DNA of 64,000 nt from assembly GCA_943737045.1 (NCBI GenBank), contig CALSFV010000662.1, forward strand, positions 1 through 64,000, written 5' to 3'. Source of the DNA: Parapristionchus giblindavisi (Eukaryota > Nematoda > Chromadorea > Rhabditida > Diplogasteridae). Positions 676 through 47,237 of the stretch are shown in pieces (position 1 is the first letter of the stretch; every line of letters starts with the position of its first letter). Both the position numbers and the translations under genes were made by a program. The notes beneath the pieces were generated by a model that worked only from the letters and a program-made list of their open reading frames with translations, was not told the DNA's origin and did no database searches.

Positions 676-1966
676 TTAATCTAACCTGAATCCATTAACT
701 TTATAATATTTAGTCCCGACAAATAGAAAACTCTGATCATTAAATCGAAGGGCTGCATCTATTTTAGATGGAATTTCACCCTGAAGATGATAGACAGATA
801 AGATATTATGAAATCTAATGAACCTTAAATATTCCTTTAGTACTCTTTGGCCATTGTCTTCCATTCCAAAACGAGAATAAGGCCAATATCGATCCTGAAT
901 TATATAATTATTGATTTATTGATTCGATAGATCTTTACCTTTTTGAACATATATGGTTGATCATCTTCACTATATATAAGGCAGCATCAATATCATCAGG
1001 CATATCTATTAATCCCTATTGATTGATATTGATTGAATTGTAATAGATACAGTATGACTTACTCGATTTATACGCCATGGATATCCCTTCTGTAATTCTC
1101 CATCTCGATTCAATAACCAATACTTATCTCCCTTAAATTAATTAATACATATTCTAAGGATATGTTTTAGTAAATGTGGTAGGAGATATGAGAGAATGAC
1201 TGGATCAAGTTATGTTTGACACAACGAAACTATACCATTTGAAGAAAATATGTGTACTTATGTATATAGTAAGCCGAACACGCTTAGATCAACGAGACAA
1301 ATCTCAAACATCGATCGATGTTAAGCCAAGAAAAAAACTTACCAGGAAAACCTATTTGCGCACATTATATTTTATCAAAATATTTTATTGTCAATATCGA
1401 TAGTTTGTTTATTCAAATGTATCCACTTTGTGTGCTGGTAAAAATCGGTAAAAAATTCTTGGTCCGAGATTTTTCAAATTAAAAATTCCATAACTTTTTT
1501 AATTGAATTTTTTTTCAAGAACAAAGTTGATCAGAGCATCGATCTGACCATAAAACACCTTTTCACAAATAATTTGCACAAATAAAAACAGTTTTTTCGT
1601 TGTCTTTATAGATCGATATAAGACGAAATATCGTTTTTTTTGTTAATTGATCAAGTCCTCATATACACGGACCATCATTAGAATTCCATAAATCAATTGA
1701 AAGTAGTATTGTACCTTGAACACATATGAATCTCCATCACCATCAGTTAATATATCATCAATATTACTATCAAATGGCCATGAATCAATTATTAATCGAG
1801 GATATCCTTTCTCTATTCCACCTTCATCTAATAAACGCCATACCATTCACCTTAAATTCCATTATATTATCGATCGATAAATTGGATCGAATACCTTTGA
1901 AAGCAAACAATGTTCCATTTCCAAGTACTGTAATAGCATCAATAGTAGGATTCTTCTCCCGTTTTT
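676..1966 (-). pseudogene. Hemopexin-repeat (matrix metalloproteinase-like) gene, 3' part, broken
   Basis: Minus-strand exons at about 1895-1966, 1715-1850, 1063-1131, 939-1015 and 676-894 read as four hemopexin blades. Each carries the family signature IDA(A/I) followed by FK(G)-x-x-YW and GYP; examples are FKGDKYWLLNRDGELQKGYP, KIDAALRFND and NPTIDAITVLGN. The product ends at a TAA at 676-678. Hemopexin domains normally follow a zinc protease catalytic domain, but no HExxH motif lies upstream, where the sequence changes abruptly to a GC-rich island near 1985. Two frame breaks occur: one inside the exon at 1715-1850 (near 1838, between the EWY and WRLLDEGG parts of one blade) and one at a TATATA run at about 971-977. 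Either this is a decaying gene cut by an insertion, or the consensus has indel errors. Hemopexin assignment is firm; status as pseudogene is inferred. Confidence 0.65.
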
Positions 1967-1984
1967 GGATGGTCGAAAAGCGTG

Positions 1985-2195
1985 AGAAATGCGGGGAGCC
2001 CAACGGGTGATAAAGCGCCCGCGGATGATTCGAGGGTGATATGCGGGCGATCGAGCGACCGCGGGCGATCGGCGGGTGAGATTTGTGACTCCGATCGCCC
2101 GCGGGCGAAACGAACGGTTCGACCCGCGGCACATCTTAGGGGAGGAGCGTCCGCGGACGATAGTGGGAATAGCGCCGGAGAGGGAGCCGGGAAAT
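1985..2195. repeat. GC-rich island with CCGCGGGCG / GGGCGATCG words (left)
   Basis: About 200 bp of strongly GC-rich sequence in an AT-rich genome, built from repeated short words such as GCGGGCGATCG, CCGCGGGCG and AACGGGTGAT. It begins exactly where the hemopexin gene stops being readable. Related words recur at 18820-18980 and almost nowhere else in the window. It could be an end of a large mobile element, a promoter island, or a satellite remnant. Confidence 0.45.
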
Positions 2196-3605
2196 AGAAA
2201 TTCCGTGGTGTGGTAGAGGAGCTGAAGCCTAATATTTGAATTTTCGAAGTGCGGTTGAATTTTAATTTAGATTAGTCGTTTTACTTATTTTATTGTAGTA
2301 TATTGAGGTTGTTTGAAATGTTAAATTAATGACCTGTGTGTGCGTCTAGAGTTAGAGTTGTTTTGGGGCCATATTGTCTATCTGCTGTTGTTCCGTGAGC
2401 ATGTCTTGTTGTTTATGCGTATTTTTCTTTAATTTTTTACCTGCACCTGCCCGGTTTTAAATATTAATGTTCGTATTTCAGTGGGTTCGAGACACTCGTA
2501 TCGGTCGTTCTGCAGGCAGGCGTACATTGACTGGTTCAGGTAAATATTTTATTTACTTATCCACTTTTATGTTTCATCTTTATTCATTTATCTGTACCAT
2601 TTCTAATTATGCTTACCGATTGTGCTGCGGCGCTCATTTATTCTTTTATTACTATTCTTATTACTATTATTACTATTCTTATTATTTTTATTTATAATTA
2701 TTCTCCTTTTCCTCCTTGTTTCTTCTTCTCATCCTTCTCCGTCTTCTTCTTTCCCTTGCTTTTCTTCTTCTTCTTCTTCTTATTATTATTATTATATTAT
2801 TATTATTATTATTATTATTATATTTTATTTCTTGCTTGATTTCCTCCTCCTCCGCCCGCTTATTCACGCTGCGATTTCACTTCTTGCATTATTAGGGATT
2901 GTATATTGGAGTGATTATTACGCGTTTAGACTAAGCTGCGTAGGTTGGGCATTGTAATTAGTTGATTGCCGTTGTTTCGCGAATTTTGTTGGATGATATT
3001 GAGTTTGCTATTAAATTTAATTAAATCATGCGCGATTTTCATAACGTTTTTCTAAGTGTTGGTTTAGATTCATATTTTGTAGCTATTGCTTTTACTATTG
3101 TCGTTTCATCTTGTTGTCTTGTGTATTATCCTTACATTTTTTAGTGAGCCCTCGCACGTGATCGACGTTGTGACCCGTAAGGTCATAGCTTGTAGCAGTC
3201 AAGTAGCGTGGGAGTGAATCTCGGTAGATATTTCGATAATCATTATGATAAATTTTTTATTTGTCATTTCTATTTTTGTATCTTTCATCTTTCTTTATCT
3301 TTACATTTATCTTTATCCTGCTAATCAATCACTCTGCTACTTTCTATTTTCTTTCTTTGATATTCCTTGTGTATGATATTAAACAGGTGTATCATATTAA
3401 ACAGTATTATCTTTTCAGTTCACGCGAAGGCCTATTCAAGCATTTGAATCAACGTTTGGTCGAGCGGCTACAACAGGTAGATATTTGGAAAATTATAATT
3501 TATTATTGTTATTGCTATAAGCTTTCATATCTCTTGCCTGATTTCCATTTTGTTTTACTGCCGCTCTCTATCATGCATGCGACGGCTTTTATCTTATTTA
3601 TTCAG

Positions 3606-3775
3606 TGATTCCTCCTCCTCCTCCTCCTCCTTCTTCTTCTTCTTCTTCTTCTTCTTCTTCTTCTTCTTCTCTTCTTCTTCTTCTTTCTTCTTCTGTCTTC
3701 TTCTTCTTCTTCTTCTTCTTCTTCTTTCTTCTTCTTCTTCTTCTTCTCTCTTCTTCTTCTTCTTCTTCTTATTAG
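3606..3775. repeat. (TTC)n microsatellite
   Basis: An interrupted array of TTC/TCC triplets about 170 bp long. Long serine, phenylalanine, glutamate or lysine open frames across it are artefacts of the triplet period. Confidence 0.9.
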
Positions 3776-3777
3776 TA

Positions 3778-4655
3778 TTATTATTTGATTCATTCATCCT
3801 TTCATTCCGTTCCATTCATTTATTCATTCATTCAGTCATTCTTTGATCATTTCATTCATTTATTCATTCATTCATTCATTCAGTCATTCCGTTCCATTCA
3901 TTCATTCATTCCATTTCATTCATTCCATTTCATTCATTCCATTTCATTCATTCCATTTCATTCATTCCATTTCATTCATTTCCATTTCTTTCATTCCATT
4001 TTCTTTCATTCCATTTCATTCATTCCTTCATTCATTCATTGATTCATTCCGTTCCATTCATTCATTTATTCATTCATTCATTCAGTCAGTCAGTCATTCT
4101 TTGATCCTTTCATTCATTCATTCATTCCTTCATTTATTCATTCATTCATTCATTCCTTCAATTGATTCATCGCATTCATTCATTCATTCAGTCATTCTTT
4201 GATCCTTTCATCCATTCATTCATTGATTCATTGCTTCATTCCGTTCCATGTTTATTCATTCTTTTCATTGATTCATCCATTCCATTTTTATTTGCATTCC
4301 ATTTCATTCATTCATTTTATTCATTCATTCATTCATTCATTCCATTTTATTCATTCTTTCATCGATTCATCCATTCATTTACTCATTCATTCATTCATCC
4401 TTTCATCCATTCATTCATTCCATTTCATTCATTCCTTCATTGATTCATCCATTCATTCCTTCATTCATTCATTCATTCATTCATTCATTCATTCATTCAT
4501 TCCATCCATTCATTCATTCATTTCATCCATTCATTCATTCCATTTCATTCATTCCTTTCATTGAGTTCATCCATTCATTCATGTCATTCATTCATTCATT
4601 CATTCATTCATTCATCCATTCATTCATTCCATTTCATTCATTCCTTCATTCATTC
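3778..4655. repeat. (ATTC)n tetranucleotide array
   Basis: About 880 bp of degenerate ATTC/ATTT/TTCC tetranucleotides with higher-order blocks such as CCATTTCATT. It opens several overlapping frames rich in Ser, Phe, His and Ile, which are not genes. Confidence 0.9.
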
Positions 4656-4870
4656 AGATCACGTGAGTGTCGATTATCGTCTATCCTTCCCATATTTGTC
4701 ATCAATGTTTCCCTCTGGTTTGTGTTTAATTTTAATACATTCTATCTCTTTTCGCGTATTCAGTATTGTATTTGACGGAAGTAGCAAACAAGTCATGTTT
4801 TTATTTCATAAGCAAATAATAAACCAATTTTAAAATTTTAAAAACAAAAGTAAGTGATAATAAATTGCAG

Positions 4871-7800
4871 GAGGCTCTGTGTGCAAGTGCGGGCGACTCC
4901 TTTTCTTCATGCAATAGATTGTGATCGTACAGGTACTGTGTTTAACTTACGGTATTGTTACTGTAACAATTAAAAATTGATTTATTCAGAATCTACACGA
5001 AAGGAAGGCGACCCTCCTACGAACACAAAGAGACGACGATTAGTAGGAGATGAATTGGATCGAGTACACGGTGAGTCCTTTGTTTCTCGCTAAATTATAA
5101 ACTTGATCTATCGCTTATATTTTTATACAATATCCTGTTTCAATTACGTCAGTACGCTTGTTGTGTACAAAAATCAGAGTTAAAGAACTAAAATTAATTC
5201 GATATGAGCATTTTTATGGTAAAGCCAATCAACATTTCACTTTTCACAATTTGAGTTCACGCTATTTACATATCCGGGGCCGGTTGGACCCCATGTTTGT
5301 TATGTTTTCCGTTACTGTAATCCCAAAATTCTCGCTCGGTTTACAGACGGCTTTACATCCTTTCGCCTAACAACACGTTGTCAAACTAACGTATGTGGAT
5401 ACGATCCTTTTGAGATCGCGCATGACCTAATCACAGTTGATCACTATACCACAACAAAATAAAATGCAATTTGACCAACTACCGTAACCCACCTGGTAGT
5501 ACCCCTGTCATTTACGACTATTATTACCAATATAATTGCAACTTGGTTGACAATTGTTGCCATCTCGGCGGCAGTGATGCCGTTTGATCGTAAAACAACC
5601 GGCAAGATCCGGGAAAATTTGTAGTTTTATCGGTCATAGCCGGACAACAGCCGGATGTACCGAACCGATTTATTCTTTTCCTTAATTAGTTCTTTTCATT
5701 GTATTTCCTATTTCTTGCTTTTGAGTCTATAGAATTCAGATGCAGTGCATAATTTTATGATTTGCATAATTATTTTAACCCTCGCAATTTATTGCGGACC
5801 GATTTTTCCCAGGCTTCAAGCCATTTTTTTCAGCGAATATTTATTTAATTCGTTAATTGCATAATTAAACGATTAAATTCAGCAAATGCGTTGACATTTT
5901 CATAATTCACGCAAGAAGATTGGCAAAATATTTCTGAGTGATTATGTCGGTGTATTTTCGCGATGTATGATAAATAAATAAAAACAAATCGTTATGGGTC
6001 GTAACATTTGTGTTACGCGCCAGCGCCCTGCAACAATAAAAGAAACCCTGAAAGGCAATAGTGACAAGGTTAGAAGGTACCGTAACCATCAATAACCATC
6101 GATCAACAATTGTTGACTACCATTTTATATCCGATCAGGGTTTTCCACTCGAGACCCTGTATATTCCAAAATGTACGCCGACGCCGACGGAGCGAAATGT
6201 AACACATTGCGCACTTATGGCGCAGGCGCGTAACACAAATGTAACGTCGCATTAAAGGTTTCTCTGCCTTGAACTTTATTTTACCTTCTATTACAGAAGA
6301 GCAAGCGAGTTCGCGGCTGTCCGATGGCGACTACAGCAGGCAGTCGTCTAGTAGTGGTTAGCAAAATTCCATTTTATTTTTTTTTAATTCCAACTATTAA
6401 CCACTGTTAGCGTACACATTGTGCGATGCTTAATGTACAATGTTCATATGTTCATTTCTGTATGCTTGTTGGTGTTTTAAGCAGTTTTGTTGTAGATCTG
6501 TCCATCGGGAATGGAGATGAAGAGGAAGAGGAAGAGGAGGAGGTGGCGACGGAGGAGGAGGAGGAAGAGGAGGAGGAGGAGGAGGAAGAAGAAGTTCCCA
6601 AGGGTAGGAAAAAATGGTTTTCCAAATTTTCTTATCTATTGTCTATTTTAGATCCGATGAGGATAGGTGACAGATTAACCATAGACGCTTCCAACTTCGC
6701 TCACTTTGGGTGGTCTGCTTCCGAATATGAAGCTACGCAGCTCACGCATCCTGTACCATTGACATACAGAGACCTCGATCGTCACTGTCGGTTGAAGTTC
6801 AAGTGTGCTGGATTTGAAGAAAAGCACTATTGTGCGGGATGTTCATCTCCACGTTCTTCATCTACTTCGCCGTGTCCGCTAGCATGCGCGTATGTAGAAT
6901 TACGTTTTCCCTCAACCAAAGTGTGTACTTTCAGCAGTCCTGAACTCATGAGCCTCTCGTATACTCCATTCAATGCCATGTATGAAGAAGTGCTGAAAAG
7001 AACCGCTGCATTGATTGTTGAGGAACATCGTCGTGTGCATGCAAGGTAGGTGGCGTAGTACTATTAAAACGCCTTCTCCGTAAGAGCGGCGGGGCATGGC
7101 ACAATGTTTCAAAATCATCCTAGGTGATCCATATTTCATGATTGGAGTACCTAGGGGACATTTTCCCCAAAAAATGATCCAAATTATTGATTTTTGATAT
7201 TCTAAAAGTCGAAAAATCGAAATGTGATTTCCATGACATGTTGTATACCATTCGATAGAGCATCGAAAGATACATAATAATCCCAAGATTCATGAGTTTT
7301 CATAGCACCGTGTTCGAGAAATATGAAATTTTCCGAATTTCATGAATGGCTGGTAGCTGGTCCAAATAAGTGTGATATTCGGGTAGCACATCCATTGTTA
7401 CCCAACATGAAAAATCCAGGCCCTGGAAATAATGGTGTAAGTCATGAGATCAGAGCGACAAAAATTGGCCAAAATCTGGAAAATTTCATATTTCTCGAAC
7501 ACAGTGCTATGAAAACTCATGAAACTCATGGGATTATTATGTATCTTTCGATGCTCTATCGAATGGCATACAACAAGCCATGGTTTCTGATTGTTTGAAA
7601 CTAATATCATGGTGCTATGCCCCCCACAGTTCTCCTTCGGTTGCCGGATTTTCACATCCTTTTCGTCATTCCTATATTCTTTTCAGGAACGCTTCATTGA
7701 TCGCTTGTTACACCGTGCCTAGTGATCTCTCGGATTGTACCGCGTTTTCGAACGCGATGGAGTCAGCGGTGGAATTCGACAGTGGTATCATCAAGACACC

Positions 7801-10674
7801 TCTTCTGTGCAATACGGACGGAACTCACAAGGTCGGCCTCGGGTAGGATAATTTTTGATGTAGTAATGGGATTTAATTTTAAAATAAAAATGCTTCAGCA
7901 AGGCAGTTTGGCCTGTCTTTTTCTCGATCGCCTCTTTGCCTATGCAAACACGAGCTAGAGCTTGCAATGTGGTCTTTTGTAGACTAGGGACTCTGAGCAG
8001 TGCATTCAGCACTGCGTCGTGCAACATCTTAATCCAAGGTAAATGCTTATTGTTGTAGCCTTGTTGCGTCACCGAAATATTTGGGATGTACAGGGTTTGT
8101 AGGGCATTCACTTGGCACCAGCACACTGCAGAGGTCCCATTGACCGTCCGATCATAAGGTCGCAGTTACATAATGCAAATGCTTTAGGCTTGAAGGCTGA
8201 AATAGATGATTGTGCAGTACGTATTCATGTGGCAGATAGAGTGTTCTCGTTTCATCCTGTCCTCATGGGATCAATTCTCGATAAACAGGTAATCAAATTT
8301 ACCTTTAATTCCAATATATTGAATTATGACACATTCAGGCACTGCATAAGGCCTACGACTTATCACTATGGAATGCGAAGACTGGATCACACTCGTGCAA
8401 TCTGTGTCTCGTTTCCGCGATCCGAGTTGGAACGAGAACGATCTTCCCCCTGAATCTCGGTTCAGGTAAGTGAGGTTTATTTTTGTTCTATCACTTTGGC
8501 ATCCTCTCATTGAATGATCCACAGGTGCGCGGTCGAGAGGTGACGTAATCGTTTCGGCTCGTGCTTCGAAACACGGTCTTGGAAGTGAGTTCGAAAGTTC
8601 TTTAACGACCATTACCTTGATCCCAATATATCAAGGTTTGACGGAGTTTCAAAGGTTGATCCCCATGACCGAGGCTGCCTGCGACATTCTACATGATGAG
8701 GAATTGGGATATTGCAGAGATTTGGTTCACAGTAAGTATTTGTTACAAATATGTCTAAATATTATTCCTTCTCGTTTAGGTCTTCTGGGTAAGAAGTCCA
8801 GCCGTCCGCTCTCGCAACTGCAGCTGAAGCCAGGATCAATCAAACTGATTGATGATGCAGTTGCCCGAGCGCGCCTTCCTTCTTCTTCTCTCCATCGCCT
8901 GTGCACACCCTCTTCTGTTGGCTCTCGGACAATGAGTGGTATAGAGTATTTACAGGTTTGAATAATTGGCGGCTTAACTGTGTGCTAACAATTTACTACA
9001 TTTCAAGTTCATGCTTCTAATCGCCCCCCCTGTTGCCTATTCTCAGCTGTTCAACGACGACAGAGTGTCTGCCTGCACTCTGTTATTATGCGTGAGGCTC
9101 ATAATCATCGGTTGGTGCATTTACAGTATTGTACAAAATTCCAATACTTGCAGGTGACCCCGACAAGTACGTGAGATTCGGTCGATTGCTCGACGACGTT
9201 GTTGCGGCGCTAAAGGAGATGTGGACTGATTCGTTTGGCGAGAGTTCACTCAATTTGAAATGCCACGTTAGTTTTGTAATTGTTTATGTTAATATTCGTA
9301 TGAGTCTTATTTAACCGTGGTTTTTGAACTTCTTGGTCTTCTGCCAAAGTGCGGGCAACGGCTTGATTCCTTCCTCGAAACACGAAAATGTTCGGCATTT
9401 CTCAAATGGCGGGGGATTGGACTGACTGATATCAAGGGAAGTGAGAGAGGGGCTATTGTGCAGTATCAATAAAGCCGAACTAAAAAGATTCACCGTTAAT
9501 TCTAGCTCAACCTAATAGCTAAGAGAACTCTTGCAGTCCTTCCTCATGCACTCAACTTCCAACTCCATTTCTCCGCCTTTCGCATCTTCCTCAAGCATGT
9601 TCGAGGCACTCAATCATATTATCAAGAAGGGTCCGGTGACAACAACACATGTGTCAGCTATTCATCGGAGGTGAATTCATGAAAAGTATTTGCAAACAAA
9701 CGATGTTTATCAGATCCATTCTTCTATCGTCCCTCACGGAGGATTTGGAGGTGATTGCTGGCGACAAGAAGAATCCTCTTCGGAAGGCTGCTGAGACTGC
9801 ACTTGGACGATACCTTGGACAGTCAAAGTCTAATGGTGGAGGGGCAGTGAGTCATTGTCCATTTGATAGTTTCTTTGGATGTATGCTTTATACATCCTTC
9901 CATCTGCCTCACGCACATTACGCTAAGTATGGATCTGCGTTAAATTTGGAGTGTTTTGCCTCCCAATATGTAGCCAACCGTCGATAAACAACGGATGGCT
10001 ATCGTTGCCTTTCGCAGTAATTTTGTGGCCCATCAGATTGTTATATTTTGGATTCAAAACACTCCAAAATGCTTATGCACCGAAAAAAAACATAATAAAG
10101 CTTTGTTTATTATCTTTTTCTCCAGAGACCTCTTCGTGGTGCCATTCCTCAAGCTAAACTCCATGCGTGGCAAGCCCACAAGGAATACGTCGTTCACCTC
10201 CACGGTCATGACAGCGTGTTGTGGTTAGTGAAATTTTGCGACCTTTATTAAACATGCCAATTCAGGCCCAATGCAGAAATAGGAGGTAGAAGGCTTCGAT
10301 CATATCTAATTGATGAATACCGAAAGTCATCCAATTCAATAATTTCCTTCGACTCTGGAGGAAAAATATTGTATGCAAGAGTAGTTTGTACTGTTGTAAC
10401 CAACTCCCGCTGTTTTGTGCTAGGGCAACTCTTGCGTGTCGGTAAAGTCATATCGGTATTGGCAAATGCCATCGCGAAAGATCCTAAATACTCCCATGTT
10501 GCTAGTGTATTAAGAGAGAGCGAGGAAGTAAATCTTCTGAGAAGATTGGTCCCTAATCAGTCTTATGACTACGTAGAAATAAACCCTCAATCAGTTCTTA
10601 GCCATTGTGTTCTCGTGAGATTAGATATCAGAATGTACATTGTTACCGCTCCCTTCATCTTTACTAGAACGTAA
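4871..10674 (+). CDS. Tnp2/CACTA (EnSpm)-like transposase, multi-exon
   Basis: Phase-consistent exons: 4871-4932, 4990-5070, 6297-6356, 6496-6603, 6652-7045, 7687-7842, 8132-8288, 8339-8465, 8525-8731, 8780-8955, 9008-9110, 9154-9266, about 9329-9465, 9537-9670, 9714-9846, 10126-10223, 10266-10674 (TAA). The N-terminus has a basic KRRR patch and a long Glu tract. The core resembles Tnp2 transposases: LLCNTDG (candidate first Asp), SILDKQ, SHSCNLCLVSAIRVGTR (zinc-binding CxxC before RVG, PL), ACDILHDEELG in the place of the family's DxLH-xx-WEG block, SGIEYLQFMLLIAPPV, the SLNLKCHLLGLLPK block and MFEALNHIIKKG, like the family's FE-x-LN-x-x-K. The start is not found. The acceptor before CTTCTTGGTC at about 9329 is not a normal AG, and the exon after it ends unclearly, so this copy may be damaged there. 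Family assignment is by motif order only. Confidence 0.62.
6000..6246. mobile_element. MITE-like element with 27-bp terminal inverted repeats
   Basis: The left end at 6000-6026 (CGTAACATTTGTGTTACGCG...) is matched in inverted orientation at 6219-6246 with one or two mismatches. It sits in the intron between transposase exons at 4990-5070 and 6297-6356. No coding capacity is seen. Confidence 0.65.
7089..7625. mobile_element. Foldback element inside transposase intron
   Basis: About 540 bp whose halves are inverted copies: the 7235-7335 stretch (ATTCGATAGAGCATCGAAAG, then TTCATGAGTTTTCATAGCAC) recurs reversed at 7480-7575, and the ends read GGGGCATGGCACAATG and, inverted, GGGGCATAGCACCATG. It lies in the intron between exons ending 7045 and starting 7687, so it is nested in the larger element. 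Confidence 0.65.
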
Positions 10675-10757
10675 ATAGCATCTATACATTCGTGTTTTAG
10701 TTGTATTTGGTTTAGTTGTAGTTCTTTTGTGTTACTTGTTGAAATTGATTCAACTAT

Positions 10758-10974
10758 GTCGGATGAGAACCGACAGAATGATAACCGACAGGATGATAAC
10801 CGGAAGCTACCTGATGAGAACCCACGTGATGCGAACCGAAATTTTGAATCATTTGTCATAAAGCAGGTCTTATACGCTCAGTGTTCATCATGTGGGTTCC
10901 CATCCGGTAGCTTCCGGTTATCATTCTGTCGGTTATCATTCTGTCGGTTATCATTCTGTCGGTTCTCATCCGAC
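10758..10974. repeat. Hairpin of inverted ACCGACAG/CTGTCGGT repeats
   Basis: Just downstream of the transposase stop codon, GATGAGAACCGACAGAATGA and GATAACCGGAAGCTACC are followed about 60-130 bp later by their inverted copies (CGGTAGCTTCCGGTTATCAT, TCATTCTGTCGGTTATCATT repeated three times). The TGATAACCGACAG-type unit is itself tandemly repeated in both arms. Confidence 0.75.
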
Positions 10975-11146
10975 AAAGTTCCATCTGCAAAGCACTCCAT
11001 TTTCCTTAGTATTGTGAAAATTTTATGAAGATTAAAGCTTGATTCCAACGTTTGTATGCCTATCCGGGCATCCGTCTTATGTCGGCTTCATGTACTTTTA
11101 ATTATATGAACCATCACTTAAATATTTGTCAGTTCAGTTCTGAGTA

Positions 11147-13868
11147 ATGGCAGGAAGATTAGATATCATCCTCAAAGCTGGATTCACATTGGTTTGTTTA
11201 ATTCGTTTTCCAATTATCAGAACTAATTGAAAATTTATTTTCAGGATGACTGCATACTGTGTCTGTCATCGGGAGATAGTGATGAGTTCTATTCGAAGGT
11301 GAACTGTTTTTATTGAAAGGCTAATAAATGTAGGCTTTACAGAACTCCCGTCTACAACCTGCTCGAATACTCATCTCAGCATTGCTTCGCAATGGCTGCG
11401 ACGTGGTGAGTGGCATTTATTTTAGCAAAATTAATGGCAAACAGTGATAGGGTACCATAACCGTTAACGTGAAGGTGTTAGGTGGTATACGATAATTAAT
11501 TCTTCTTAGAATTCATTGATTGACGAGGCGATGAACTACAGCACTTTTCAATCAAAGAAAGATACTCTTCTATCAAAGAAAGATACTCTTCAATCAAAGA
11601 TAGAGATTGGAGACACTTCACGCATCCCCAATCCGTTTGTATGCACTACAATGTATTCAACGATACAATAAACAATTTAGACTGACGAGATCATCGATGT
11701 GGAGTCGAATCATGTGGGAGATGAGTCAACAATGGAGAGAAGCCGACGGCAGGTGATTTTCATTGTTAAATTAAACCATTTTAAATTACATTGCATTTTT
11801 ATATTTACGATTCAACATTTGAAACAGCAAATAAACAAGTGAATAGGGAATGAGAGGTGTAAGGGGAGAGAGCGGATTGCAGGTTTTGTTCATATGTAGA
11901 CTTAATGAAACATGCACTCCCCTCTGTCCCATTGCCCCTCTCATTCCCCATTCGCTTATTTAATTTCTGTTTCAAATGTTGTTCGATCCTTGAATGTATG
12001 ATTAATTTAAATTCAGACAATGGTTGGCTGTCCTCCAACCACTCCAGTACCCAAGGCAGAGTTGGCTGTAGCACCGAAGAAACAGAAGATTATGAAAAAT
12101 GAAGTGAGATGCTAAATTTAATTTTTATTTAAACTAATTGATTTCCTGTTAATAAGATCGAAAACCGCGTTATGTTGCATAGCAGTCCGTTTCCATTTCG
12201 TTTATCCATTTCGGTTCGGATGTCGTACCTGACTGCAACTTTTTCCTTTCCTGTTCCTTTAACCGAAATTTGAATCATTTCAGTTTGATGATGAAGTGAA
12301 CACGTGTACTGTAACTATGAAGAAATTGCTGTCATTATCAAGGAAAGGAGAAGCTGTTGCTGAGGTAATATAAAGTTATGAGAAGATGGTCTGTATAGAA
12401 ATCCAAATTTGCAGCAATACGGTACTTCATTATCTCGCCCCCCAACTCATGATGCCATCAATATGCGCGGTTACAGTACTGGCGAGCAACTAGAAGGAAT
12501 GCTAACCATGGTGGGTTTATCTTTCTTGTTATATGAAATAGCTATCAAATACCCGAAAGCCAGAATCGGGAATTTTTAATTTAAGTCTTAGTGGTTTTTT
12601 TTTTAAAAATACACTGCGAAATGTGAATTTAAATCTTTCAAATTTAATTCTTTTTTAATTCGTTTTATAAAACTTCTTGGGTTATTCCTTTTTTTTGGCA
12701 GTGGACGGGCAATGAATTTTTTTCGTTTTAGCAGCGAGTCATGGGAGGGTATTTATCGACGCTGCGCTCTGATATGTGTGCATCTGCAGCGTCTACTGGC
12801 ACGACTTCTGATATTTTGGTAAAGAATACATTATCTTTTACAAAAATCTTAATTACTTGCAGCGACTCTACCGATTCGATCCTGATAGATTGGTCGATTC
12901 GACCGGAATACAGAAGAAATATATCGTGAAGATGTTGAATGGTGAAAAGGAGGTTGACCTTGGCATTATAGCCGAAAGGGCTATAAAAACTATGATTACC
13001 GGTAGTACAGATATAAAGTCTATGTACAGAACCCTTCTGAATTCATTCTTTGATGCTGTAAGCAAACGAAGATCCATTTTATTTTTTTAAATGTTTTTCC
13101 CTTCCAGTTGTTACCTGTGAGCATGCGTCATACTCTATCTCTATCACACGGCAAAGGGTTAACTCCTTTGAGGAATACCGATGCCTATCTTGCAATATTC
13201 GGTTAGTGAAAATTAAAAAGAAATTGTTATATGTGAGCAAGCTCTAAGTCGCCCTTTTCCTCGGTATTAATTTTTTAAATACATTGTTCCATAGGTCTTT
13301 AGAGATTCGCAAAATGCGATCATTTTTTCGCAAAATGCGCTCTTTTTCTGCACAATGCGTAAATATGTTTTTGCAAAAAAATTGGGTGAGGGTTCATGGT
13401 TTGCTACATACTTTTTAAACTATGCTGTGTTCGTTTGACTCATGTAAAATGCAGGGGAAACACTTGATGCCTTAACGAATTTTTTTGTACGTTACATGTT
13501 CCAAACGGCGATACTTTTTCAGAAGTCATTCAACGTGTAGCTGGTGTTAACCGGGATCCTGCTTTCAATAAGCAATTGGAAGAAGAAATAAAGAGGGCAG
13601 CGTGAGTTTATTTTGAAATTATTTTATAACCACGGAGAAAATGAAAGTTGGTTTTTTTTTTCTCGGAATTTTTGTCGGTTTCGACTATAATTTTTATTAT
13701 TACAAAAATCTGTGAAATTGATGAGCCGATCTAGCTTGACTTATACTTTCTTTAATATGCGAATAGTCAATCGAATAACGCATCAATCTTTCCAGAAGGA
13801 GATATCGAGACAACCACTCATCAAAGATCAAGCAGATAGGAGAGAAGCAAGTCGAGGCAAAAGATTGA
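11147..13868 (+). CDS. Second element-encoded protein, possible BEN-like C-terminus
   Basis: Thirteen exons all join in frame from ATG at 11147 to TGA at 13866-13868, giving about 387 residues: 11147-11191 (MAGRLDIILKAGFTL), then exons starting near 11245, 11334, 11511, 11680, 12017, 12284, 12416, 12732, 12862, 13108, 13522 and 13797. The middle has a repeated SKKDTL motif and a basic patch (APKKQKIMK) that could be a nuclear signal. The C-terminal 110 residues are helical-looking and charged (MYRTLLNSFFDALLP, GKGLTPLRNTDAYLAIFEVI, LEEEIKRAARRYRDN), in the style of BEN DNA-binding domains; this is a weak resemblance. It follows the transposase on the same strand, recalling CACTA elements that encode a DNA-binding TnpA beside the transposase. 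Not recognised by name. Confidence 0.6.
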
Positions 13869-15233
13869 GGTAAACATCATACTATATATGCCATCAAACC
13901 ATCAAACACCATGGAATAAACACCTCCAAAAAAGTGGAATTTTTTTACAAAAATTGGTTGTTTTTTTTAGTTTGGAACCCACTTGAGTAGAACTAAAGTT
14001 GAAAAATAAATCGGGAGCTTTGCGTATCACATTTTGTATACTACATACTGTACTGTATACTGTAGAATCTTACTATAGATGTGTTTCCATGAGAAATTCC
14101 AACCATGCATATTTCTATCATTCATGACTTCTTACAGCCCCGTATGCCTGATTTCGTTGAAGGCTTAGCTTCGTTCTCACGTCTTGTGATCAGCCATCTA
14201 TATTTATTGTTCAAATGGTCCTCCCATTCCTCGTCCACCTATAAGTTGTGCTCTTTCCGTATTTGTTTTCCATTTCTTTTCCTTTTCCGTTTTCCATTTC
14301 CATATTTGTTTTGTTTTCTGTTTCCATTCTTCTTTCTTTCTTTACTTAATTTATCGATTGTAATTGAGCTAATGTGAGTTACGGATTAATTATAGGTTGT
14401 ACGTTATTTCACGTTTAATCATTACTATAATACGTGTACTAGTTCGATTTTAGTGTTTAGGTTGTGATTCAATAATTACGATCCGTATTCCTTATTAAAA
14501 TTAATATTACAAAATGATAATAAATTTGTTTTCACTTTCCCATCTTTCATGTCTATGAGTATTGATCAATGGTTGTAAACCAGCACTATATCTTTTTTTT
14601 TATATTTTCAGCCCTATCATGGCAATTGATTAGCGAGAACGAGAATTGCATAATAAAGATCAAAGATCAATCTGCTAATCCATAATTTAAATTATAGAAT
14701 ATTCTAAATGAATTGATCAAGAAAAGATTATCATTCTATTATTATAATTCATAATTTCATTTTAGGTATGTTACTTATCGATAATTATTTTTACTAAATA
14801 TATAAATCAATACCTATAATAATACCACCTATAACACCTTTTATTTGATATCTTACTTATCGTTTCAAACATAGGGAGATGCAGTATATCTGTATTGATT
14901 GATGTATATTATAGGTACGTTATTGGAGATGATGAAGATCAGAGTATAATATATGATGAATGTAGAAGACTTGAATGATATGCACCTAAAGGACATAAAT
15001 ATTCCGAAGGAAAACGGAAGGCTGGCATGTACATTATTATATGCTTTATTATCTATATCCTTATATCTTTTATTATTATATATCGGTACTTGTCTATCAC
15101 TTAGCGAACCGAGATCAGATTAGGTTGAAACCGTTACCAATGATTTTTCAGTGCAGATTGGTCCAGGATTATGTATCTGGACGTTGAATTATAATGATAT
15201 TGATAATTATAATGATAGTGTTCATCATCAATA
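13869..15233. other. No gene recognised
   Basis: AT-rich sequence. A degenerate acceptor-side copy of the later exon modules occurs at about 15115-15170 (CCAATGATTTTTCAGTGCAG then ATTGGTCC), showing that the module family starts before the RSPRY1-like fragment. Nothing else is supported. Confidence 0.4.
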
Positions 15234-16200
15234 ATGGAATTATTAAAGGGAAGAGTAACACGCCTTTTATTATGTTTTTTTAAGTCTCATCGAACAATTG
15301 GATTGCATAGAAATGTTTGTATCGTTCTTGGTTCTTTAGCTGAGAAAATGGCTGGAGCTAGTTGTAGTTCCATATGTACAACTGTTACTAGACAATATCT
15401 TTTTTTTGATAATGTGGTTAGTTCATTCTTCATATTATTATATGATTATTGATTGATTCAGCATTATAATTGTCCTCCAGAAGTCATTCTATTCTCATTG
15501 ATTGCTCTTGAGAAATTTTCCCAAATATCAGAGAATCGATTAACTATTCTTAGATCATTTAATCGTAATGAAGGACAGCTTAATGCTCTTGAGGTACATA
15601 TTTATAATATATATGCGTTGTAAAGTGCTCATACTCATATGAAAATGATACCATTAAGTTATTGTAGTAAATTCTACTCTTGATTCAAAAGTCGTCAAAC
15701 ATTATTTTGTATAATAATGTTTTGCTGTTTCAGATTCTCGAAAGATGGTTAGATGGTGATAATCGAATGAGAGATCCTATATGTAAACAAGAGAGATCCT
15801 ATATGTGAGTATATATTGATTGTATTCATTGTATTCATTGATTTTAGTTGTTAATGACAATCGAAGATATTCATGTACAGTTAGTTAGTTGAGTTATGGT
15901 TGAATTGAATGAATGCAATGCTTAATATCGTTCTGATGTATTTGAATTTCTCAAGATAGGTCCTTATTTCAATCATTCAATTATGTGTCTTTCAATGATT
16001 TATCATTACTTTCAATAATTACTTTCAATCATTGAACTCATATGAATATATTCATATGAGTATTATGTATTTGAATGGATAGAGGATAGAGGTAACAGAT
16101 ATTGTGCTGAAGCTCTTTGTGATATATCTTCATTTGAATCAGTTCTATGTGCATTTGAAGTATATATGCATTTGAAGTACCTCAAGATAGGAAGGGAGCA
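15234..16200 (+). pseudogene. RSPRY1-like (RING and SPRY protein) gene fragment
   Basis: Spliced reading gives HRNVCIVLGSLAEKMAG, then PPEVILFSLIALEKFSQISE and ILERWLDGDNRMRDP, followed near 16090-16160 by EALCDISSFESVLCAFEV. These match, in order, the armadillo-like region of RSPRY1 (HRN-x-CVVLG-x-AEKLAG, LFALIALEKFAQTSENK, LERW) and its SSFESV-x-CTF block before SPRY. The expected QVGFCAQW segment is replaced by a short duplicated phrase (two ICKQERSYM-like readings at 15780-15803). No SPRY core or C-terminal RING follows. Human RSPRY1 is a secreted or vesicular protein of skeletal biology; that role is not implied here. It looks like a captured or decaying piece of a host gene. Confidence 0.6.
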
Positions 16201-16485
16201 TGGTGAGATCATTCAATCATATATTATATATTATTGATAATATTATTAATTTTCAATGAGTTCGCATTACGATTTTAGATTCTGACCTTAGTTTTGTGTA
16301 ATTATTAGAGTTTAGAACGATGTAAAATTTCGGTGTTATTGATAAGTATTGTGATAATAGGTATTATGAAGCTACAATACTCACGGCAGGGATTAATAAT
16401 AATATACTTTATGCAATGGATTCAGCAAATTGCATTTAAAATTGCAAATCGACCTATAACCATATCCAATGATTTTTCATTTCAG

Positions 16486-16674
16486 ATTGGCCCCGGTTCA
16501 ACCGAGAGGGACGCAACGAGATGGGGCGGAGGATGGCGGGATACTGTAGAATCAGGGACTGAATGAGTACCGCTGGTACAGTAAGGCAAGCTCATTCGGT
16601 CGCGCATTCTACAGTAGACCGATGAAGACGCCTCTGATATGGACCGGAGAATGGAGAAGGAGAGGCCGAAACAG
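16486..16674 (+). ncRNA. Exon-like module 1 with long hairpin
   Basis: The module begins after a TTTCAG acceptor and ends at ACAG|GTGAGA. It carries a hairpin at 16542-16616: the 5' arm TACTGTAGAATCAGGGACTG and the 3' arm ending GCGCATTCTACAGTA pair over about 26 bp, closing on GAATGAG/CTCATTC, with loop TACCGCTGGTACAGTAAGGC. Flanks read CCCCGGTTCAACCGAGAGGG and GAGAGGCCGAAACAG, shared with the other modules. The resemblance to a pre-miRNA is structural only. Confidence 0.55.
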
Positions 16675-16869
16675 GTGAGAGATAGTCATTTGGTACTTGT
16701 CCGATACGTACGTACCGATATCTCAGTGGGTGTATGCGGCGATTATCTATATCCTTACTATTATTATATATTATGTTATATCTTTTATTATTATATATCG
16801 ATAATGGTCTGATATGTAGCAACCGAGATCAGATTGGGTTTCAACCGTAACCAATGATTTTCATTGCAG

Positions 16870-17082
16870 AAGCGCCATTTCCCCCGTGTGGGACCCGAGA
16901 TGGATCGGAGAATGGACAAGGAGAGGCCAGAGATGAGGTGAGAGATAGTCATTTGGTACTTGTGTATCACGTAGTAATCGATGATTCATTGGGTTATAAC
17001 CGTAACCAATGATTTTTGATTGCAGCTTGAACCCGGTTCCACCGAGAGGGACTACAAACGGCGCCATAAGTGGCCAGAAGAG
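16870..17082 (+). repeat. Exon-like modules 2 and 3, no hairpin
   Basis: Two short members at 16870-16937 and 17026-17082. Each follows the repeated block CCGTAACCAATGATTTT...TGCAG, carries CCCCCGTGTGGGACCCGAG or CCACCGAGAGGGAC, and ends GAG|GTGAGA. They retain splice-like borders but lack the hairpin insert. Confidence 0.6.
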
Positions 17083-17342
17083 GTGAGATATAGACGTAGG
17101 GAACTTACCTGATATGCAGCTACCAATATCTGATTAGGTCTGAACAATACATTTTGTAGAACTCACATTTTGTGTACGGGTCAGTATATAAATTGGTCGG
17201 CTTGCAAATTACGGGTCACTTTACCTCATATTTCGCCAAAAAATACACAAAAATACGACGAATGAGCAATAACATAGTTCTTAAATTGTGAGTAGAACAA
17301 AAACATATGGTTATAACCGTAACCAATGATTTTTGATTGCAG

Positions 17343-17537
17343 ATTGGCCCCGGTTCCCCCGAGAGGGACGACACGAGATGGGCGGAGAGTGAGCCCCGGT
17401 TACTGTAGAAGAAGTTACTGAATGAGTACCACTAGTACAGTTTGGCAAGCTCATTCAGTCTCGACTTCTGCAGTTAACCGCGGGTGCAGCCTCTCCCTGG
17501 GACGCGGCGGAGAAGACGCCAGGAGAGGCCGAACCAG
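17343..17537 (+). ncRNA. Exon-like module 4 with long hairpin
   Basis: Bounded by TTGATTGCAG and CCAG|GTGAGA. The hairpin at 17397-17480 has arms CGGTTACTGTAGAAGAAGTT and ACTTCTGCAGTTAACCG, closing on ACTGAATGAG/CTCATTCAGT, with loop TACCACTAGTACAGTTTGGC. The stem is about 30 bp with a few mismatches and bulges. Arm differences relative to module 1 occur in both arms and keep pairing. Confidence 0.58.
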
Positions 17538-17795
17538 GTGAGATATAGTACATACATTTTAGTACCCTCACAGCGTGAGGATTGACCCACTATATAAGGG
17601 TAATTTTTATCTGAAACATTGCAATGTAAAATAAAAATAACGATTTTCCACTATATTTCGATATTCGACCCACTATATAAAACAATCTGGTGAGGGCGCC
17701 GAAAATGGGTGATATAGTAATTCGGTATTGGTTCTGATAGGTAGCAACCGAGATCAAATTGGGTTGGAACCGTAACCAATGATTTTCCATTGCAG

Positions 17796-17989
17796 ATGGG
17801 ACCGGATCCCCCGAGAGGAACGACACGAGATGGGCGGAGAGGGATCCCCGGTTACTGTAGAAATTGCGAATGAATGAGTACCACTAGTACAGTACGGCAA
17901 GCTCATTCACTAGCAATTTCTGCAGTTAACTGCGGAAGCAGTCCCTCCCCGAGATGGATCGGACAATGCCCAAAGATAGGCCAGAACAG
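17796..17989 (+). ncRNA. Exon-like module 5 with long hairpin
   Basis: Bounded by CCATTGCAG and ACAG|GTCAGA. The hairpin at 17849-17932 pairs GTTACTGTAGAAATTGCGAA with CTAGCAATTTCTGCAGTTAA, and TGAATGAG with CTCATTCA, around loop TACCACTAGTACAGTACGGC. Module 6 carries an almost identical copy. Confidence 0.6.
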
Positions 17990-18175
17990 GTCAGAGGTAG
18001 TCATTTGGTACTTGTCTATAACTTAGCAACCAGGGCTGTGCAACAAGGCATATTTTCGGCAATGTTCCCCAAAAACATATTTTGATGATTTTTTGATCTT
18101 TTGTAGACTTGATTCGAGCAATAAACGTTATTGCACACTTGGGTTGAAACCGTAACCAATGATTTTTCATTGCAG

Positions 18176-18366
18176 TTTGGCCCCGGATCCCCCGAGAGGG
18201 AAAAGAGATGGGGGAGAGGGATCCCCGGTTACTGTAGAAATTGCGAATGAATGAGTACCACTACTACAGTACGGCAAGCTCATTCACTAGCAATTTCTGC
18301 AGTCAACCGTGGAAGCAACCTCTCCCTTGGACGCGGCTGAGAAGACGCCATGAGAGGCCCGAAGAG
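18176..18366 (+). ncRNA. Exon-like module 6 with long hairpin
   Basis: Bounded by TCATTGCAG and GAAGAG|GTGAGA. The hairpin at 18226-18309 is nearly identical to that of module 5; it differs by one base in the loop (ACTACTAC for ACTAGTAC) and near the base of the 3' arm (CAGTCAACCG). Confidence 0.6.
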
Positions 18367-18454
18367 GTGAGATACAGTAGATAAGAATTGGTATAATAGG
18401 CAGCAACCGAGATCAGATTGGGTCAGAACCGTAATTCATGATTTTTTATTGCAG

Positions 18455-18520
18455 ATGGGTCAGTCCCCCCGTGTGGGACCCGAGACGGGGCGGAGAAGGC
18501 GTGAGGAAAGGCCAGAAGAG
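18455..18520 (+). repeat. Exon-like module 7, no hairpin
   Basis: Follows TTTTTATTGCAG and ends CCAGAAGAG|GTAAGA. A further spliced-looking exon starts at 18570 after ATCATTGCAG (TCCGGCAACCACTCC). Together they suggest a multi-exon transcript on the plus strand that ends before the last hairpin. Confidence 0.5.
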
Positions 18521-18702
18521 GTAAGAGAATCACTTTCACTATCACAAGCTTTTACATTATCATTGCAGTCCGGCAACCACTCCTCCGTTAGTGAGAAGCA
18601 AGCCGCGTCGATGAGAAGAATTGCCATTTTATTTGTTTAATTGTTTATTTAATTCGTTTGTTCATCAGTTTAAACATGTTTTTTGTGTTGATGGCCATTA
18701 GA

Positions 18703-18784
18703 GGTTACTGTATGCATTGCGATTGTTGAAGTACCACTTCTACAATATGGCAAGCTTAAACAGTCGTAATGCATATGGTGAACC
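18703..18784 (+). ncRNA. Divergent member of the hairpin family
   Basis: GGTTACTGTATGCATTGCGA pairs with GTAATGCATATGGTGAACC, and TTGTTGAAG with the start of the 3' arm GCTTAAACAGTC, around loop TACCACTTCTACAATATGGC. Stem arms differ from the other four, while the loop keeps TACCACT...TACA.TA.GGCAAG. Confidence 0.55.
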
Positions 18785-18814
18785 GAGGGGCACCCATGAT
18801 CCTGGGCCCCTATC

Positions 18815-19100
18815 TCTTATTATCCGCGGGCGAACGCCCACACATTCACGGTCGAACCCCGGGCGATCGGCGGTCGATCACCCGTTGATTCGTGGGCGCC
18901 CGAGAGGGCCCTTCCGGATGCAGGCGAATCAACGGGAAATCACCCGAATTTCGTCCGACGATCGCCCATTCAAAAACCGGAGCAGATATCTGCAAGGGAT
19001 AGTGATGTGCGCTGTTTGGAATGGGCTAGGGAGAGAGTGACGCGTCGCGGTCACGCATCGCGGTCGAGATGCCGCGGCTGCTCTATTGCGTTCGCAAGAG
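18815..19100. repeat. GC-rich island (right)
   Basis: GC-rich sequence sharing words with the island at 1985-2195: ATCCGCGGGCG, GGGCGATCGGCGG, ATCACCCGTTG. It is the last unusual sequence before ordinary host DNA of the KH-domain gene. Possibly the right end of the large element; exact termini and target duplication were not found. Confidence 0.45.
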
Positions 19101-19400
19101 ATTGGAGCGTTTCTATGCCTCGCTATCTCATTAATTGACATTTTCCACTCGTTCGCGTTATGTTTATGAGGCGTTGTATCGATTATCCAAATTCAATGTC
19201 ATTTCTTACAGGTAATTAGCAGCCGAACCTATCGGCCCATCGAGAAGGTTGCCATTTAGGCTCTTCTCTTAGATCGATCATCAATCCAAGGTCATAACCT
19301 ACAGGTATCTTTTTAAACGGTTTTAGTAGTTGATTAGATCTTTTTTTTGTATCGAATTAGAATAATTTGTACGTTTTTTCAGGATTTGTGGTCGCTTAAT

Positions 19401-21690
19401 ATGGAATACTATAGACAAACACAGACTGTAAGTCATTCTGGACAAGCGCCACAGAGCTATATGTATCAACAGCCTGTAAGTTATTCATAGGAAATTTATT
19501 AAATTTAGTTGGGTTTTGTTGTTTATTCATTGTTTTTTTTCAGACAAGCGCACAATCGAATTCGGGTATGTACTATCAAGCGATGAACAACTACCCCCAA
19601 CAACCTTCACCTTACGGTATGCAGGATTCCGTTAGTCAAGGTATACTTGCATAAACAGAAGCGCTACAAAATACTTTTTTATGGCATTTGTAATATTTTC
19701 ATTTGACAGGCAGTAGCATGGTTCAGCAACAAGGTGTAGCTGGTGCAACCGGCAATGGTAGAAGAGCTCGTGGAACTGATACGAACGCTCCTATTCATCC
19801 GAATATGTCTAGAGGACAGGTCAGTTATAGTTAGTTTTAATTCTTATATGATATTAAATTAGTTTCAGGATGATACCCCTCTAAGAATGGTTGTTGATGC
19901 TAAGTACGTAGGAGCCATCATTGGTCAGCAAGGAAACAAGATCAGAGAGATCACGAAGGAGAGCAAAGCACGGTGCATCGTTGATGCTCATAAGGGAATG
20001 AGGGATGCCCAGGGAACCGCTGAGAAAGTACGGTAGCTTTGATTTTGAACAATATCTGTGAGAAGTATATTAAAAATGAATTTTTTTAGGTTATCATGAT
20101 CTATGGAACTCCTGAGAACACGTCTAAGGCCGTCGTAAAGATTTTGGAGGTTATTGAAACCGAAAAAGAGAAGGAGCGTGATAGAGAAGTAGCAGCCGGC
20201 GATTCTGGACTTGGAGATCTAGAGAAAAGTTGTAGTAATGAAGTAGAATTGAAGCTTCGTGCACACAATCAGCTAGTAGGAAGATTGATTGGAAAGCAAG
20301 GAAGTACGATTAAGAAGATCATGACTGATACCGACACTGTTATTTATGTATCTAAGTAAGTCAAATCTTAACAAATGCATTATTGAATAAATTTGATTTG
20401 ATTGCAGTTTGGCTGAGAGCGGTCCTACTGCTGTTCTAATGCCTGCCTACGCTGAAATGCTCATGTCCACTGATAGAACGATTACTGTAAAGGCCTCAAC
20501 TGTAGCTGCTGTATCTGCTGCTGAACAAAGAATCTCTGCCAAACTAAGGCAGAGTTATGAATACGATGTTGCTAATAGAGTTCGTTCTTTTTTTATTGTA
20601 TTAATTATTATTTAAAAATATTAATGCGTTATGGTTCAGGTTGCATTCGGAGGTGCTGCTTCTGCTGCTCTACCCATGATGCCCATGACTTATGATGCTT
20701 CTGCTATGGCTGGAGGTATGGACTCGGCACTAGGAATTATCATTCCATCACATTTATTCATATATTTGTAGGTATCAGACCCCAATTGACTTCTTCCTTC
20801 AAATGTGCCAAGATGTTCGTTCCAAACAACATGGTTGGAGCTATTATTGGATCCAAGGTACGCTTTATATTTTAATTTATCTCGTTCAATTCATAAAAGT
20901 AATTGATTTAGGGATCTCACATTCGCAATATCATGCGTACCACAGGAGCTGTTATGCGAATTGAAGGAAACGATAAAATCCGCGAGGAAAAGGAAAAGAA
21001 GGAGAAAGAAGATGGAGATGAAACAACTGAATCACCAGTCGAAGATAGTACTCCTAAGGAGACTAATACAAATGATAAGGAAGATGATACTGAAGGAGAA
21101 GATAAGAAGAAAAAGGAAAATGTAGATAATGAAGAAGTTTCTGAAAGACTTGTTACTATTACTGGAAATGATCAACAAATATATAGAGCACAATATTCTA
21201 TCTTCGCCAAGATCGCTGAACAACAAGGACAATATGTTGAGGAGGTATGATTGGGATAATAGACAATGTAGATGAATGAATAATATTTTAATTTACAGGT
21301 TAAACTTCGAAGTGAAGTAAATGTTCCATCTCGTTTGGTTGGAAGAATTATTGGAAAGGGAGGACAGAATGTTAGAGAACTCCAAAGACTTACCGGTGCT
21401 CATGTTAAGATTGCCGAAGAGAATAATCCTGAGAATAAGGAGAAAGAGGATGATAAGGTACTGTAATGTAATTGATTGTATGGAATGGTTAATGAATTGA
21501 TGTATTATAGGAAAGTGATGGAGCGAATGAAGTTGGAGAGACTACTGTACGTGTTATTGGAAATATGACTGCAACCCTTGGAGTAGAAGCTCGAGTAGCG
21601 ACTCTTATCAGTGAATTCGCAAGAAATAGTGTAAATGAACGATCTGATCGTCCTAATGGTGCATCATCTGCTGGTCCTACTAATGAATAG
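19401..21690 (+). CDS. imph-1: IGF2BP/IMP-type RNA-binding protein, four KH domains
   Basis: Spliced from ATG at 19401 to TAG at 21688-21690. A Gln/Tyr/Ser-rich N-terminus is followed by four KH domains with intact GxxG loops: VGAIIGQQGNKIREIT, LVGRLIGKQGSTIKKI, VGAIIGSKGSHIRNIM and LVGRIIGKGGQNVREL. The first reads DTPLRMVVDAKYVGAIIG, very close to the IGF2BP KH1 start. A long Glu/Lys/Asp-rich insert interrupts KH3 (about 20960-21140). IGF2BPs bind mRNA to control localisation, stability and translation in the cytoplasm. No RRMs precede KH1, as in the Drosophila orthologue. Noncoding spliced exons lie upstream near 19210-19310. The gene symbol follows the C. elegans orthologue and is an inference. 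Confidence 0.85.
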
Positions 21691-40563: not shown

Positions 40564-40837
40564 GTATATCATAGTATTAATTGATTAAATGGTACAATAC
40601 TTGAAGTTATACAACTTTCATTCAATTCAATCATTCTCATCTTTCATCCCATACCTCTCAAATATGTAATAGAGTCGGTTATAATTTTTTAATAAACATA
40701 TATGGCTTGTACTGTACACCGTTCGATAAAGAATTATTTACTTGACCCATACTGGATTCCATTCATTGAGGTTTTTATCCCTCTAAAATATTGCAATAAT
40801 CAATTACCATCTGTCGTATAATTGATATTAAGTAATA

Positions 40838-41067
40838 ATGCCTTGCGACGGAAAGCCTAAAACTGAAGTGAAAGATGGGGAGAAGAAGCTGAAGCCATGC
40901 TGTGCTTGTCCTGAAACGAAGAAGGTTAGATGAGTACTGTAATTGATATTGATTGAAAGTTGTTGAAGCCTCGTGACCAATGCATTGTTGAGAAGGGAGA
41001 AGAACATTGTGGAGATCTAATTGAAGCTCATAAGAAGTGTATGAGAGATCATGGATTCAATATCTAA
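40838..41067 (+). CDS. cox-17: COX17 copper chaperone, copy 1
   Basis: Exons 40838-40924 and 40969-41067. The product of 62 residues has the copper-binding [11 protein letters not shown] and two CX9C pairs (CPETKKPRDQC and [11 protein letters not shown]), ending [11 protein letters not shown]17 delivers Cu(I) to SCO1/COX11 in the mitochondrial intermembrane space for cytochrome c oxidase assembly. Length and motif spacing are normal. It is followed by AATAAA-containing sequence near 41175. Confidence 0.95.
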
Positions 41068-41287
41068 TCTTCATTCATTCATTCAATAGAAATCTCCTTA
41101 TCCATTACAGTATATTGCTCAAGAAGATGCTTTATCAATTGTTATCTGTTTTACTCCATAGTTACTGTTAGATGTTAATAAATAGTTGTTTATATTCCAT
41201 TACCTTGGCTTTGCATATCGTTTGAATCGATAATCAATATTTGAAGATAATTGCGGTATTCCTTCATATATATTGAATAAAGTACAG

Positions 41288-47182: not shown

Positions 47183-47237
47183 GTAAGTCATTCTCTATCC
47201 CTCTCCTCTTCTTCCTCCTCTTCTTCTTCTTCTTTTT

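Follow-up and report, generated by a model that had tools for sequence, protein, structure and literature searches.

A one-sided array of exon-like modules, whose hairpins are conserved in structure, was carried by a DNA transposon of the nematode Parapristionchus giblindavisi. In the window, the 64,000-nucleotide stretch of contig CALSFV010000662.1 that was analysed, the array made up the right-hand 2.5 kb of a 17,027-bp element with terminal inverted repeats (TIRs) at positions 1956-18982 on the plus strand. Sequence features indicate that the array likely gives a spliced plus-strand RNA. Our preferred reading, with a probability of about 0.4, is that the array represents a spliced noncoding transposon transcript, the hairpins of which would be recognised by a protein and act in cis on the RNA of the element. 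Transcription, splicing in vivo, protein binding and the resulting effect are proposed for the array from its sequence.

The extent of the transposon was defined by the points at which its copies diverged and by its inverted ends. All 12 of the long copies besides that of the window departed from the window sequence at 18982, and two other insertions, which read across the left border, departed from it at 1954-1956. The ends consisted of a 17-bp imperfect inverted repeat, CTCCCGTTTTTGGATGG at 1956-1972 on the plus strand and CTCCGGTTTTTGAATGG at 18966-18982 on the minus strand; the divergence points and this repeat therefore set the limits of the element. Both flanks were read on one contig for six insertions, and five of these showed a target-site duplication of 2 bp (AT in C13 and C24, TT in C157 and C368, and TA in C275); the flanks of the sixth, C71 (TT/TA), did not fit a 2-bp duplication. 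Elements of the CACTA/EnSpm type have TIRs starting with CACTA or CACTG, a target-site duplication typically of 3 bp and a Tnp2-like (Transposase_21) transposase. The initial annotation had called the element CACTA-like, a label left unsupported by the CTCCC ends, the 2-bp duplication and the absence of any Pfam match above cut-off.

The presumed transposase gene consisted of split open-frame exons at 4991-9266 on the plus strand, which were joined into a single open frame of 543 residues by splice sites picked by hand to hold the frame. A 497-residue hand-spliced protein, the last ~36 residues of which were joined by guess, had PF18272 as its best Pfam match (E 0.013, below cut-off), and the single exons gave PF18272 (0.0011) and PF25786 (0.0053), both below cut-off. 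No homologue of the 497-residue protein was found at E≤1e-3 among 7994 scored candidates.

A presumed captured fragment of a host gene with introns, which may be RSPRY1-like, was located at 15231-15799 (plus strand). It lay downstream of the first acceptor block (15128-15169) and upstream of module 1, in the same sense as the transposon's own exons. It matched positions 139578-139955 and 140069-140149 of contig C239 at 84% on the protein level, and the C239 copy is presumably its parent. A host fragment inside a TIR element, with a parent-like copy elsewhere in the genome, is the arrangement that defines Pack-TYPE elements and is seen in this transposon. The long copies of the element also matched, and there were weaker hits (74-81%) beside the related arrays L016, L017 and L047, on contigs C398 and C224 (L016/L017) and C21 (L047), where they lay further upstream. 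In L016 and L047, nothing separated a block equivalent to 15128-15169 from the module-1 block that came after it. A counterpart of 16053-16344 was found in L016 upstream of the acceptor block of the 15128-15169 type. The order of captured segment and acceptor block therefore differs between families.

Copies were sought in the whole genome (251 Mb, 703 contigs). The array was present in 13 long copies with 99.7-100% identity. One left flank was common to five contigs (C661, C487, C354, C228, and C71) and one right flank to five other contigs (C144, C306, C450, C469, and C98); the contigs of the left-flank group, except C71, ended 1955 bp past the element, and those of the right-flank group 6077 bp past it. 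Shared flanks at a fixed distance look like contig-end duplicates of unresolved repeats in the assembly, and the true insertions are therefore fewer than 13, a count that the long copies overstate. With up to two mismatches, the right-end TIR had 47 matches genome-wide, compared with 0 for a reversed control, and the matches formed inverted pairs at 13 contigs. Eleven of the pairs were 3.6-5.7 kb apart (C2, C13, C24, C45, C70, C71, C202, C222, C239, C398, and C653), and the spacing was 15.4 kb in C141 and 210 bp in C157. Each of the 11 small relatives of 3.6-5.7 kb carried array pieces at one end (loci L014, L015, L018-L020, L046, L048, L049, L051, L052, and L056).

Several further features were observed beside the element. 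The left parts of the C13 (L053/L048) and C24 (L056) elements contained short exon-like stretches with the acceptor TTTTTCAG, the donor CAG/GTA and differing interiors; judged by eye, exon-like pieces of the C13 element possibly derive from host exons by capture. A search for the SL1 leader that allowed up to one mismatch gave 627 matches in the genome (223 forward and 404 reverse), and a tandem of ~1.17 kb was among the matches listed. In the window, 39911-47236 and 47233-54506 formed a tandem 7.3-kb duplication (~99%), which may be real or an assembly effect; a 54-bp repeat was present in both copies, in about 29-30 units each. An inverted repeat at 37427-38039 and 38169-38781 had arms of 613 bp with 97% identity and a gap of ~130 bp.

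Direct reading of the sequence confirmed the seven related tandem modules on the plus strand, within 16486-18520, that the initial annotation had described. Hairpins were contained in module 1 (16486-16674, hairpin 16539-16624), module 4 (17343-17537, hairpin 17398-17483), module 5 (17796-17989, hairpin 17850-17935), and module 6 (18176-18366, hairpin 18227-18312), and were absent from module 2 (16870-16937), module 3 (17026-17082), and module 7 (18455-18520). The fifth hairpin (18703-18788) does follow the modules, as had been noted, and belongs more precisely to a presumed terminal exon (18569-18982) separated from module 7 by a presumed intron of 48 nt (18521-18568), an ordinary size in nematodes. 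No donor block was found after this exon, and neither AATAAA nor ATTAAA occurred in 18501-19100. An acceptor block of the CCGTAACCAATGATTTT..CAG type preceded each module, in variant form in the first and the seventh, and an extra, eighth block lay upstream at 15128-15169 on the plus strand without a clear exon. The donors were of the form AG/GT, with GTGAGA in five of the seven modules, GTCAGA once (17990) and GTAAGA once (18521), in agreement with the usual GTGAGA reported before.

Profiles of the acceptor, donor and hairpin were scanned over the window and 16 related loci. Nearly all modules showed the order acceptor, hairpin (or none), donor, and the last one or two hairpins before the element end were without a donor. 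The exceptions were one hairpin without a following donor and one extra donor-like block in an intron, in L014/L015, and no block was found in L050. The acceptor borders were AG in all 46 distinct rows that reached the border (3 of 49 rows stopped short) and the donor borders were GT in all 38, counts that are weaker than those of an unbiased sample since the consensus used to pick out similar rows itself contained AG and GT. The freest positions of the border motifs were donor +3 (G in 29 of 38) and acceptor -4 (G in 28 of 46). The 30 distinct hairpin exons measured 153-207 nt with a median of 191 nt (27 at 187-195 nt, the others at 153, 153, and 207 nt), the 19 distinct exons without a hairpin measured 56-66 nt, and the 47 distinct introns, a count outside which the last intron of the window stands, measured 80-1113 nt with a median of 239 nt.

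None of the 30 hairpin exons could be read through in an open plus-strand frame, and protein-coding modules were rejected on this ground; on the minus strand, two frames were open in 10 and 6 of the 30. Conserved splice borders, combined with the lack of an open frame through the hairpin exons, are the pattern expected of a spliced noncoding RNA. In the exons without a hairpin (16870-16937, 17026-17082, 18455-18520, and their relatives), frame 0 was open in 18 of 19 and the length was divisible by three in 13 of 19, although at acceptors with the sequence CAGAAG some exon starts in this frame analysis were misplaced by three nucleotides. The openness of frame 0 possibly reflects short coding cassettes or GC-rich chance.

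All five hairpins of the window, starting at 16539, 17398, 17850, 18227, and 18703, folded as had been claimed, at -36.4 to -41.3 kcal/mol with z of -6.05 to -7.25, and none of 200 dinucleotide shuffles for each hairpin matched the native fold. At first look, one hairpin gave 167 candidates in the genome, of which 40 were scored and 127 were unscored. In 38 of the 40, a match to the right TIR followed on that strand at a distance of 670-1321 bp. The other two belonged to the arrays L017 and L047, both of which could be aligned to a transposon end: L017 has a diverged end TIR, ...GTTTGAAAAGGGGAG, and the analysed piece of L047 aligned to the window as far as 18912. Each element contained three to six hairpins. 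Because the scored hits lay beside, or in arrays alignable to, a transposon end, a free-standing RNA gene was rejected; the earlier proposal of an independent, clustered small-RNA gene found no support for the same reason, together with the greater variation of the mid-stem relative to the apical part. Rfam gave 0 matches at the gathering threshold over the 64 kb, and in 14500-19500 only MIR444 (20.6 bits, E 1) and mir-1000 (20.3 bits, E 0.67), both sub-threshold.

The structure of the hairpins was analysed in an almost gapless alignment of 86 columns that contained 37 distinct hairpins (68 occurrences), with pairs defined by i+j=83 for columns 1-4 and i+j=82 for columns 5-30. Paired cells amounted to 88.9% of 1109, compared with 82.5% in shuffles, and to 25-40% when the partner was slid by 1-3 columns. 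The covariation score, 0.225 versus 0.147, was reached by 0 of 500 shuffles; the shuffle counts given here overstate the support since the sequences are related. For pairs with two-sided change the excess was weak (12 versus 8.1, 8 of 500 shuffles), and it was absent for further pair types (29 versus 28.2, 224 of 500 shuffles). RNAalifold on 28 extended hairpins found two-sided support in 3 of 26 pairs. Pairing was thus kept while the stem sequence changed, which supports the earlier suggestion that structure is maintained over stem sequence and that the duplicated exon-like modules hold a structure of the noncoding RNA type.

Mean column identity was highest in the apical stem (0.986, columns 28-30 with 52-54), followed by the outer stem (0.889), the loop (0.875, columns 31-51), and the mid-stem (0.771), in which 5 of 34 columns were invariant. 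The description of a conserved loop on variable arms consequently applied to the mid-stem, with a contrast that was gradual rather than absolute. The apical features kept were A31 opposite C49-A50-A51, the U30.G52 wobble in 34 of 37 hairpins, and C32-C33 with G47-G48.

The strand on which the stem is kept was judged from the way in which pairs decay. If the stem were kept as DNA, Watson-Crick pairs should decay equally often to G.T and to A.C, since a G.T on one strand reads as A.C on the other. Counted on parsimony trees, changes from Watson-Crick to G.U and to A.C were 24:8, and repeat counts over all pairs with two tie-breaks gave 23:7 and 19:6. Restricted to the 26 core pairs, the full tree gave 19:7 (p 0.029) and 15:6 (p 0.078) with the two tie-breaks. 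Trees built from half the columns gave 20:7, 17:7, 19:5, and 16:4. The same kinds of change in the flanking exon and intron were balanced at 240:237 (29:21, 29:34, 98:104, and 84:78 in four sets); the hairpin's own unpaired columns leaned likewise to G.U at 14:10. The plus strand also folded more stably than the minus strand in 32 of 37 hairpins. An excess of G.U of 2.4-4 to 1 on the plus strand moderately favours selection on a plus-strand RNA, and its direction was that of the splice signals.

The main rival to this reading is that the hairpins are small-RNA precursors carried by the transposon, pri-miRNA-like and cut by Drosha and Dicer, that perhaps silence a host defence gene in the way of rice miR820. 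The size of the hairpins, with stems of about 26-30 bp, would suit such precursors, and exonic pri-miRNAs are ordinary. Conservation pointed the other way: a mature microRNA arm is expected to be more conserved than the loop, but the possible 22-nt arms (0.808 in columns 6-27 and 0.798 in columns 55-76) were less conserved than the loop and the apical stem, and a mid-stem that is the most variable part, with an apical part that is the least, is unlike a targeting microRNA. Two arm sequences of 22 and 23 nt, with up to two mismatches, were found at 48 and 39 places in the genome; 45 and 36 of these lay 420-2433 bp before a right TIR, the other three for each arm fell in the arrays L016, L017, and L047, and none occurred elsewhere. 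No near-complementary host target was found for either arm at this mismatch limit. Animal microRNAs can act by the seed alone, so that the lack of near-complementary matches leaves targets possible. No Rfam family reached its cut-off, and we consider small-RNA precursors unlikely. A precedent exists in rice, where CACTA elements carry miR820, a microRNA that targets OsDRM2 (PMC3459959), so that a hairpin RNA borne by a transposon can serve a purpose.

Two other explanations were considered. The modules may be subterminal repeats, the alternative named by the initial annotation, that serve as transposase binding sites or foldbacks and look exon-like by accident. In favour of this, the array invariably lay at the right end of an element or could be aligned to one, which bears out the transposon-borne, right-terminal part of that proposal. 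The small relatives in C13 and C24 kept the array and had no match to 4991-9266, and this retention also fits a cis role at the DNA level. Against subterminal repeats, separate GGGCG/CGCCC words already crowd both ends: the 3.6-kb C13 element had 14 on the left and 11 on the right in the outer 300 bp versus 2 in the other 3021 bp, the C24 element had 13 and 10 at its ends versus 1 in the remainder, and the window element was milder, its outermost 250 bp containing 5 on one side and 6 on the other, compared with 5 in the array and 5 in the middle 10.4 kb. Moreover, the left parts of the C13 and C24 elements had no array match, a 210-bp element (C157:70996-71205) had both TIRs yet no array, and the AG/GT borders, exon lengths and G.U pattern, which point to RNA, have no obvious reason at the DNA level. 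These observations make subterminal repeats distinctly unlikely. Hitch-hiking would explain the hairpins by a small foldback insertion in an exon that was amplified in tandem and has no present function, its pairing being due to template-switch correction or youth. The obvious tandem duplicates and the near identity of the long copies fit this, but the two-sided pair changes and the apical conservation speak against it, and correction from arm to arm would not favour G.U over A.C; hitch-hiking is improbable.

Comparison with known systems showed partial likenesses. The cut-and-paste DNA transposon with a hairpin RNA encoded in its body resembles the rice CACTA elements with miR820; in rice the RNA belongs to a microRNA family whose host target is known (PMC3459959), whereas the nematode element has three to six hairpins, mostly in separate exon-like modules. 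Their arms vary more than the apical part does, and the two arms tested gave no near-complementary match in the host. Pack-TYPE elements and soybean CACTA elements with host gene fragments share a TIR element with a captured host fragment (here 15231-15799), but the nematode element differs from them in that repeated noncoding exons with hairpins, at its 3' end, come from the element itself. Capture of host sequence has also been described for animal Pack-TIRs, likewise TIR transposons, in a paper whose main text contains neither "hairpin" nor "nematode" (PMC8277862). We found no published report of such an array among open-licence PMC papers. The histone mRNA stem-loop and the iron-responsive element are protein-bound stem-loops in which a conserved loop or bulge is held on a stem kept by pairing. 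As commonly described, they are like the present hairpins in these respects, and the Rfam search gave no match at threshold.

In the preferred reading, a nematode TIR transposon family would carry a noncoding transcription unit that is spliced and runs toward the right end of the element, and the array would be its 3' portion. Exon duplication would account for the three to six hairpins found in each element. Conservation of the hairpin would act on RNA, with the pairing of the stem held, the mid-stem drifting, and the apical part, composed of the U.G wobble, the A/CAA internal loop and the CC-GG step, conserved. A putative protein, encoded either by the element or by its host, would most likely recognise the apical motif. 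Several hairpins on one spliced RNA may then form a multivalent landing pad in cis on the element's own transcript, with export, stability or escape from silencing as candidate roles. More boldly, and with considerable doubt, a DNA transposon family may encode its own multi-hairpin noncoding RNA, which arose by duplication of exons and is selected for RNA shape, that recruits a protein through the apical motif and so protects or steers the transcripts of the element by anti-silencing or export.

Cut-and-paste transposons are usually described by their ends and a transposase, and a structure-conserved hairpin RNA would be unusual equipment for such a mobile element, if the RNA is made. If the reading is true, a cut-and-paste element would possess, in the array, a regulatory RNA gene of its own and not a derived microRNA. 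The hairpin motif offers a concrete bait for its binding partner. A spliced, structured RNA on a transposon family would inform how exons captured from the host become linked to those of the transposon, and also how elements survive under the strong RNA silencing of animals.
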